DNA from: Ruminococcus callidus
Lineage (GTDB): Bacteria; Bacillota; Clostridia; Oscillospirales; Ruminococcaceae
NCBI RefSeq assembly: GCF_020709055.1
Contig: NZ_JAJFCK010000004.1
Location: 1 to 64,000, forward strand
Length of the DNA stretch: 64,000 nt
Reading direction: 5' to 3'
The translations under genes were made by a program, and so were the position numbers. Positions 7,201 to 45,921 of the stretch are shown here, in pieces. Numbering within the stretch: position 1 is the stretch's first letter; each line of letters opens with the position of its first letter. The notes beneath the pieces are model-generated. The model saw only the letters and a list, made by a program, of their open reading frames with translations. It did not search any database and was not told the origin of the DNA.

Positions 7201-8007
7201 TTAATATTCTCCAAGGCACTGGGCAAACAGCACGCAGCGAATGCCGTCATCCGCACCGGAATTGCAGGTTTGCAGGGCAATCATCTTGTCTCCAAACGCC
7301 GGCGGATCGTTCTCCGGCGCATACCAGACCATCGCCGTCTCCCGAATATCCTTGATGTACTTCTCAAACTCCGTCTTATTCAGTGTGATTTGATTCCAGT
7401 ACTCGAACTTCGCCCCCGTCTCTCCGTTCAGCACGGAACAAGCCACAATGCGGTACAGATAGCGCTTATCCAGCGACGCCACCTCAAAGTAGGGGTGTGC
7501 CTTTCCGAACTCCTCGCTCTGGAAGCTACGGATCGCAGCGAACATCGCACCGCTTGCCATGTTATGCCCATAGAACAGGGTGTTCTCCGTCTTTCCGATT
7601 TTGCCCCGGAAGTCCTCAAAAATCGAACCGGAGCTGCTGGGATTTTTCTGCCAGTCTTTGTCGATATAGAACGCATTGTCCTCACCCTGTACCACAGGAT
7701 AGTCCACAACGGTATCCGAAATGTAGATCCAGCCCACTACGTCGCTGTTGACCTCGTGATGCTGCTTAACCTTTGCCATATCCAGCTTCATCTGGTAATC
7801 ATATGTCACTGTGGTGGTTGTGGTAACTGTGGTGGTTGTCGTTGTGGCGGTTGTCGTTTCCGTTGTTGTCAGGATCGGAATCGCATCCGGCGCAGACACT
7901 TTATCCGCACCGGCGAATACGATCAGACAGATGATCACCACTACCGCAAGGGCAATGCCGATTCCGATCAGTACTTTTTCCAATTGTTTGATCCGTTTGA
8001 TTGCCAT
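7201..8007 (-). CDS. srtB: Class B sortase with threonine-rich stalk
   Basis: A 268-aa membrane-anchored transpeptidase. An N-terminal helix (about residues 10-35) is followed by a threonine-rich stretch (about 45-65), then the sortase B fold. The catalytic histidine is in FYGHNMAS (about 147), the cysteine in LQTCNSG (about 246) and the arginine in GIRCVLF (about 256). Class B sortases cut a sorting motif and join proteins to the wall or to pilins. The ATG at 8007 has GGGGAAG upstream. No substrate with an obvious sorting signal lies in the window. The Thr stalk resembles the linker of the lysozyme at 22080. Its promoter shares a motif with that of the Sel1 gene. Confidence 0.92.
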   Translation of the reverse strand: MAIKRIKQLEKVLIGIGIALAVVVIICLIVFAGADKVSAPDAIPILTTTETTTATTTTTTVTTTTTVTYDYQMKLDMAKVKQHHEVNSDVVGWIYISDTVVDYPVVQGEDNAFYIDKDWQKNPSSSGSIFEDFRGKIGKTENTLFYGHNMASGAMFAAIRSFQSEEFGKAHPYFEVASLDKRYLYRIVACSVLNGETGAKFEYWNQITLNKTEFEKYIKDIRETAMVWYAPENDPPAFGDKMIALQTCNSGADDGIRCVLFAQCLGEY

Positions 8008-8063
8008 GATACACTTCCCCAGAACAAAAATCCTCTGCCGGCGCACCGGCGCTTTGAGTCAGG

Positions 8064-8078
8064 ATAGACTCTGATACA
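8064..8078 (-). promoter_or_regulatory. 15-bp motif shared with the Sel1 promoter (site 1)
   Basis: The minus-strand sequence TGTATCAGAGTCTAT starts 4 nt after the -10 box of the sortase promoter. The identical 15 bases occur at 15643-15657, just downstream of the -10 box of the Sel1-repeat gene. Here it is flanked by GAGTC/GACTC half-sites (8056-8070). A shared operator or start-site element is likely. Confidence 0.5.
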
Positions 8079-8082
8079 TTTT

Positions 8083-8111
8083 AGTATAGCCTTTTTCTGA
8101 AACAATGTCAA
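8083..8111 (-). promoter_or_regulatory. SigA-type promoter of the sortase gene
   Basis: Minus strand TTGACA (8111-8106), 17-nt spacer, TATACT (8088-8083). The leader to the ATG at 8007 is about 70 nt. Confidence 0.85.
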
Positions 8112-8167
8112 GCTTTTTTCGAAATTCGGTTGCAATTGTGGCAGGGAACGACAGCGATGTATGGTTT

Positions 8168-8475
8168 GGCGGGACATGGTGCGCTGTGTCCCGCCAATTT
8201 CAGAAAAAGAAATTTCGTTGAAAACGTTCCACCGGAACGTTTTCAAAACACCAGTACAGCAAGCGGGACACAGGGCGGAGCGGTCTTGTTCGCTCCGCCC
8301 TCGAAAAGCTGTCGCTTTTCTCACCCACCTTCTCCGTGCGCCAGAACATGGCGCAGGGAATTTCGCTGTCTGCGGACAGCGACTTAGAGGGCACGTGCCC
8401 TCTAAGAACACCTCGCCAGCTGCGCTCAGCTGGAGCAGCCTTATAAGGTAACGATTCTGAAATCGTTCTGTTTTT
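8168..8475 (+). ncRNA. String of ten hairpins ending in a terminator-like hairpin; candidate structured RNA or repeat element
   Basis: This gap between sortase and enolase is filled with consecutive, mostly perfect hairpins: 8168-8195 (9 bp), 8196-8214 (6 bp), 8218-8246 (13 bp, 3-nt loop), 8273-8300 (10 bp), 8303-8320 (7 bp), 8337-8355 (6 bp), 8364-8381 (7 bp), a 24-nt perfect palindrome at 8383-8406, 8416-8433 (7 bp), and 8450-8467 (7 bp) followed by CTGTTTTT. The last one resembles an intrinsic terminator, which suggests plus-strand transcription. I found no convincing plus-strand promoter. No long frame or ribosome site fits a protein. The segment 8390-8444 is identical to bases 1-55. It matches no RNA family that I know. 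Confidence 0.6.
8390..8444 (+). repeat. Direct repeat, copy B
   Basis: This is the 55-bp exact copy of window bases 1-55, in the same orientation 8.4 kb away, forming the last part of the hairpin string. The two copies flank the block from the sugar transferase to the sortase. Confidence 0.9.
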
Positions 8476-8520
8476 GCACGATGCTTTTTGTTACAGCATT
8501 CCTCTCCGCACAAAGCAAAG

Positions 8521-8548
8521 CCCCCACGGCATCATCATACCGCAGGGG
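8521..8548 (-). terminator. Probable terminator of eno
   Basis: Minus strand CCCCTGCGG (8548-8540) pairs with CCGTGGGGG (8529-8521), with one wobble pair, followed by a broken T stretch. It sits 30 bp after the enolase stop. Confidence 0.55.
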
Positions 8549-8578
8549 TTTCTTCATCTGCTCTTTTTGACAGCTTTC

Positions 8579-10013
<1,435 letters not shown>

Positions 10014-16510: not shown

Positions 16511-16543
16511 CGGAGGGCACGGGAAACTGTGCCCTCCGTTTTT
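16511..16543 (+). terminator. Intrinsic terminator of rubrerythrin
   Basis: CGGAGGGCAC (16511-16520) pairs perfectly with GTGCCCTCCG (16529-16538), followed by TTTTTG. Confidence 0.93.
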
Positions 16544-28983: not shown

Positions 28984-29016
28984 GAAAAGAGGGCACCTCT
29001 TTCCAGGTGCCCTCTT
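28984..29016 (-). terminator. Terminator of the ABC-2 operon
   Basis: Minus strand AAGAGGGCACCT (29016-29005) pairs with AGGTGCCCTCTT (28998-28987), then TTCC. Confidence 0.85.
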
Positions 29017-45791: not shown

Positions 45792-45855
45792 AAAAATCTT
45801 AGAACCAGTCTTCACAAGCGGATATATGTGTCTTGTGAAGACTGGTTCTTATTTT
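45792..45855. terminator. Strong bidirectional terminator downstream of the luxS-FAD-membrane protein unit
   Basis: An 18-bp perfect stem, AGAACCAGTCTTCACAAG (45801-45818) with CTTGTGAAGACTGGTTCT (45832-45849). On the minus strand AAGATTTTTT follows. On the plus strand TATTTTT follows. Confidence 0.9.
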
Positions 45856-45921
45856 TCATCCGGCAGCAAAAAGGACTGCTCCCATGCAGGAACAGTCCTC
45901 TGATGATACGTCTTGCGGTTC

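Follow-up and report, generated by a model that had tools for sequence, protein, structure and literature searches.

Palindromic repeats in bacteria

The miniature inverted-repeat transposable elements (MITEs) RUP, BOX, SPRITE and ERIC are short, gene-free, multi-copy sequences that lie between bacterial genes, are palindromic and carry inverted ends, and in PMC10969869 the pneumococcal repeats are also described as clustering and as inserting into one another. BIME and REP sequences are likewise intergenic, are present in many copies and form mosaics of palindromic units. The insertion sequence (IS) IS1630 of Mycoplasma fermentans, which belongs to the IS30 family, targets and duplicates inverted repeats of variable length, as worded in a title cited in PMC3317919, and the text of the latter gives its duplications as 16, 23, 25 and 26 bp. 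The subject here is a string of hairpins in a 64,000-nt stretch of Ruminococcus callidus DNA (contig NZ_JAJFCK010000004.1, positions 1 to 64,000; hereafter the window). This string is very probably a copy of a dispersed, non-autonomous and gene-free mobile element of MITE-like type, the core of which is a near-perfect hairpin array.

The element differs from RUP, BOX, SPRITE and ERIC in its conserved core of seven hairpins, in the duplication of whole flanking hairpins at terminators and in that no parent IS was found. In contrast to the BIME and REP mosaics, it is made of different hairpins that stand in a fixed order and it has defined ends, and whereas IS1630 encodes an IS30 transposase the element has no gene. 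No description of this hairpin-array family was found in the open-access literature searched, and within the portions of that literature examined whole-hairpin duplication at terminators is reported only for IS1630. It is thus an apparently undescribed repeat family, for which there is a covariance model and, in relatives, a set of precise ends. The most likely reading is a new MITE-like family with an unusual, structure-directed mode of insertion, a mode that the multi-copy nature of the family makes testable.

The hairpin array and its dispersed copies

Near-perfect hairpins, one after another, fill window positions 8166-8467. Folded as RNA, the plus strand of 8160-8480 reaches -159 kcal/mol, where 100 shuffles give -100.8 +/- 4.8 (z -12.0), and the minus strand reaches -155.7 kcal/mol (z -10.1). 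Hairpin coverage over the whole 64-kb window peaks in the 300 nt from 8151, where it reaches 66% compared with a window median of 8%. The run of mostly perfect hairpins reported by the original prediction is real. Nine of the ten hairpins then counted are clear; the tenth depends on counting weak fold stems near 8203 or 8440. Only seven (8218-8433) belong to the unit that is conserved in relatives.

This conserved core, H1 to H7, occupies 8216-8450 on the plus strand and is defined by dispersed homologous copies and a covariance-model match, with its 3' limit taken from a second copy in the window. H1 (8218-8246) has a 13-bp stem and the loop ACC, H2 (8272-8301) an 11-bp stem and the loop GTCTTGTT, and H3 (8303-8320) a 7-bp stem and the loop TGTC. 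H4 (8333-8359) has an interrupted stem, and the 8-bp stem of H5 (8363-8382) covaries at its two central pairs (CG/UA/GC and GC/CG/AU). H6 (8383-8406) is the previously noted perfect palindrome of 24 nt, confirmed at this position, and H7 (8416-8433) has a 7-bp stem, and in relatives the hairpin at this place runs on into CCAAAAAACTTTTAT or a near variant. On the 5' side an extra plus-strand hairpin with an 11-bp stem (8166-8197) was not found at this position in aligned relatives. On the 3' side a tail hairpin (8450-8467) and its T run, which together span 8450-8475 of the plus strand, lie outside the core and are not common to the second window copy. That copy, at 1-62 on the plus strand, is the 3' part of an element truncated by the window edge; 60 of its 62 nt are identical to 8390-8451 and it adjoins a different gene from the first. 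Two further hairpins, at 16511-16538 and 28987-29016, have an arm (GAGGGCAC / GTGCCCTC) in common with the palindrome of H6, which may be chance.

A search with window 7201-9877, which takes in the neighbouring enolase and sortase genes, against 16 genomes of one genus gave, besides these two genes, many matches to 8211-8402. With 8128-8500 as the query the matching pieces numbered 34 in genome G009, nine each in G010 and G011, three each in G007 and G112 and one in G128, the long pieces being about 75-84% identical. A blastn search of 247 genomes, with two candidates scored per genome, gave matches in 19. Several copies were found at contig ends, as is expected of repeats. A unique locus was rejected, since homologous copies are dispersed over many genomes.

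The covariance model, R1, covers H1 to H6 in 195 positions and was built from 16 sequences, one of which is the window copy (matched at 8216-8414 with 181 bits). In a survey of 396 genomes from one bacterial family, with strict filters and up to six candidates scored per genome, R1 matched 111 (E <= 0.001). The best match was 1e-37 or better in 13 genomes, in every case across all of the model. Model sequences had come from four of the 13 (G007, G009, G112 and G128) and not from the other nine. The weaker matches include shorter, rearranged relatives in which the first hairpins are different or reordered and the 3' half is kept. Around enolase genes, 80 named loci were scanned with R1 and none matched. 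Copies in G009 and G010 (for example L145, L157 and L167) carry extra hairpin modules within the loops of H2, H5, H6 and H7, and one H2-loop module is common to both genomes.

An origin from plasmids or phages was rejected. The core of copy L160 matched no plasmid or phage record, and two exact core patterns were found in 0 viral contigs. The complete element of copy L230 gave no plasmid match and a partial match to four unannotated human faecal records labelled 'Bacteriophage sp.'. The exact end pattern described below occurs in 82 viral stretches; of 65 that were scanned six have a hairpin next to the pattern, close to background, and most of these matches are taken to be chance.

Ends and flanking hairpins in relatives

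As in a MITE, the element is short, is without a transposase gene and has many dispersed copies; in relatives it also has terminal inverted repeats. There the core lies within gene-free units of about 320-450 bp that have the ends CAGYYTGTCGAAAAA and abut terminator hairpins. This end repeat has 59 exact copies in G009 and is present in nine of ten genomes, compared with a single match over all ten for the reversed control. Of 60 sites 38 have a hairpin of 6 bp or more directly next to the repeat, whereas among 2000 random positions the count is 139.

The complete core copy L230 (1940-2271, 332 bp, genome G345) is flanked on both sides by an identical 27-nt hairpin, AGACGCAGCATGAAATAAGCTGCGTCT, and nine copies from G345, G415 and G416 share boundaries to within 2 nt. 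Both genes that flank L230 are also present on contig C210 of G416, where 176 bp separate the matched parts instead of 373 and the gap has no core. Only one hairpin, GAGACGCAGC-acataaagcg-GCTGCGTCT, is present in it, with the same TAAATTTTAAG after it. In G415 the gene order is that of the L230 locus and a different single hairpin is present. The empty site (L322 200-460, G416) has another palindromic insert, with ends ATACTAATAACCAATT and a near-inverse of it, upstream of the single terminator hairpin.

Target-site duplication was read by eye in the genus set of L230 and 18 further copies, five of which run off the end of a contig. A hairpin occurs on the left and again, identical or nearly so, on the right in eight of the 14 copies with both flanks readable (L230, L324, L325, L327, L328, L329, L332 and L338), and the hairpin-length duplications read in this way measure about 19-39 bp. 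At 56 sites the 18 nt to the left of the end repeat were looked for downstream, where they recur exactly in seven and with no more than two mismatches in 13, although two of these 13 (L192 and L197) match the palindromic cargo itself. In another set, with 60 of 63 copies usable, direct flank similarity exceeded the 99th percentile of 1200 mixed pairs in ten copies, where about 0.6 would be expected, and inverted similarity exceeded its own 99th percentile in seven. Among the ten, clear hairpins are duplicated at L201, L230, L281 and L284, the hairpin is changed at L224 and a 19-nt repeat without a hairpin is found at L266, whilst L253, L256 and L269 look like other local repeats. The same test missed the duplication of L286, which is plain in its sequence.

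Several cargos lie between CAGYYTGTCGAAAAA ends: besides the hairpin core these are a long palindrome and a short cargo of a third type. The long palindrome, which starts with GCCTCCCCTTAGTAAGGGGAGG, lies between such ends in five G009 copies (L182, L183, L186, L188 and L194) with a terminator hairpin on both sides. The third cargo (L347, L348, L356 and L365, in G419 and G420) is gene-free and about 140 bp long, shares the left end repeat, has a right end in ...GGCTTCAGCGACACGCTG and likewise has a hairpin on both sides. Copies in G010 seem by eye to carry other ends (GGGCAAY...), which may resemble those of IS231/IS4, with 11-bp direct repeats; different types of end may thus carry the core.

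Covariation and the level at which structure is kept

Aligned copies from six genomes and the window number sixteen and span 210 columns. RNAalifold predicts 50 pairs, 25 of which have changed on both sides, compared with 11.0 +/- 2.1 in 500 shuffles, and 97.6% of 793 cells pair on this structure. The covariation score is 0.317, against 0.124 when shuffled and 0.060-0.097 with partners slid. In the H1, H3 and H5 helices there are 49 two-sided and one one-sided cells, though the copies are related and the cells are not independent events. The variation is limited to some pairs whilst others never change, and positions that include the H3 and H5 loops are invariant. The original prediction had offered a modular repeat element as one option and had named a search of relatives and a covariance model as the check; the many dispersed copies with covarying, compensated stems support that option.

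Such covariation would also be expected of a new multi-copy structured non-coding RNA, encoded on the plus or the minus strand and with its hairpins selected as RNA, and the very stable fold, the 25 covarying pairs and the invariant loops of H3 and H5 speak for it. The composition of the stems makes this reading improbable. G-U pairs form 4.0% of folded pairs on the plus strand of the element and 6.3% on the minus strand; the RNase P RNA of the same genomes has 11.5% on its own strand and 10.9% on its minus strand, and for sixty random segments of the window the two figures are 9.8% and 14.0%. In only 20 of 89 element copies is the plus strand the more stable, whereas RNase P RNA folds better on its own strand in 17 of 20 (20 of 23 loci used; the pairing span allowed was 80 nt in the element and 400 nt in RNase P). 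Moreover, copies occur in either orientation to neighbouring genes, unlike what a cis-acting RNA would need. There is no Rfam match either: across the whole window no Rfam 15 family scores at its gathering threshold or above, weak matches in 8100-8580 are all below the cut-offs, and in the loci of 19 relatives the only matches are two tRNAs, so a known Rfam RNA was rejected. The G-U, strand and orientation results leave the earlier suggestion of a plus-strand RNA unit unsupported.

Counted directly, 494 hairpins in 89 copies have 4516 Watson-Crick pairs; internal mismatches are four G.T, 12 A.C and 30 of other kinds. The same finder applied to a small control of 20 RNase P RNAs returned 49 hairpins with 356 Watson-Crick pairs, four G.T, two A.C and six other mismatches. 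Stems that are nearly all Watson-Crick and a reverse strand that folds equally well suggest that the structure is kept mostly at the level of DNA rather than as plus-strand RNA, with a minus-strand RNA as a less probable alternative. Strong covariation can arise from palindromes kept in DNA and need not mean an RNA gene, and strand symmetry together with scarce G-U pairs helps to separate the two cases.

Stems that are Watson-Crick only would also result if the array were a BIME/REP-like mosaic or a set of selfish palindromes, with arms kept perfect by template-switch correction during replication and a fold that serves no use. The gain of hairpin modules in loops (G009 and G010) and the equal conservation of stems and loops agree with this, yet it seems still less probable than the RNA, as seven different hairpins keep a fixed order across genomes, some pairs vary whilst others never change, and the element has precise ends and duplicates its flank. 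It is very unlikely that the string is no more than terminator hairpins clustered at the enolase gene end, for although it lies 3' of enolase and family copies favour convergent gene ends, the scanner finds no terminator in the core and places that of enolase at 8548-8521, outside the hairpin run, and, as a strong argument, the same unit recurs beside unrelated genes.

Proposed mode of insertion

For the MITE-like element, a transposase supplied in trans would join the element ends to an extruded terminator hairpin, one on each side of its base. Repair of the resulting gap would then copy the whole hairpin, so that the duplication would be as long as the hairpin; strand transfer at the hairpin base is suggested because duplication length follows the hairpin. 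The hairpins of the core may act as folded DNA, either single-stranded or as a cruciform, that is recognised in transposition. Insertion at gene ends would spare genes, and copies could thereby build up. Among 79 of 87 copies classed from crude open reading frame calls, 23 lie between convergent genes, 47 between codirectional genes (19 in the same orientation and 28 in the opposite one) and nine between divergent genes, compared with 53, 238 and 64 of 355 control gaps of 60-800 nt in named loci. The excess at convergent genes has a p of 0.005; the shortage at divergent genes is not significant (p 0.18).

A more specific version is tentative: the element would be widespread in gut Clostridia and moved by a transposase outside the IS30 family that reads DNA structure rather than sequence and copies terminator hairpins whole, and its own array would be a folded-DNA substrate that grows by hairpins gained in loops.

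Several observations weigh against mobility of the MITE-like element or against structure kept in DNA. No autonomous parent IS was recognised among up to 30 loci around exact ends in ten genomes, where many contigs break inside copies. The IS30 transposase (NF033563) was found in 2 of 29 genomes tested, and for this reason mobilisation by IS30 was rejected and the element is not filed as IS30-mobilised. Six of the 14 readable copies are without duplication (L326, L330, L331, L334, L335 and L341), as are the other 50 of 60 by the flank-similarity test, and there is only one clear empty site, an attempt with L338 having given no genome with both flanks together. At the window copy no flank duplication was seen, and its inverted ends are not significant (p 0.31 and 0.52). 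On the RNAalifold pairs, where the contrast is weaker, G-U exceeds A-C by 35 to 9, or by 14 to 9 when one G-U pair that never varies and one misaligned helix are excluded. Loops are not more conserved than stems (0.82 and 0.81 in the 16 copies, with linkers at 0.63; 0.77 and 0.78 with one copy per source), and the idea that they are was rejected.

The two window copies have the end of the core in common and, weakly, the tail (p 0.04). The window copy is placed in the family by its core, whereas its mobility is suggested by its relatives; it probably inserted long ago, and its ends have since worn.

Neighbouring genes and other hairpins

The window copy has the 3' end of enolase (8579-9877, minus strand) on one side and the sortase gene start (7201-8046, minus strand) on the other. 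A terminator and promoter scanner reports a promoter-like site on the sortase side at 8111-8083, outside the hairpin run, and a terminator-like site on the enolase side, already given above. It did not call the tail hairpin at 8450-8475 a terminator, and the view that the unit ends in one finds no support, as this last terminator-like hairpin lies outside the conserved unit. Protein coding was rejected: the frames at 8161-8451 (plus) and 7968-8513 (minus) have no Pfam match, and indels separate the copies. Second in hairpin density within the window is 45801-45901, where two strong adjoining hairpins are terminator-like.
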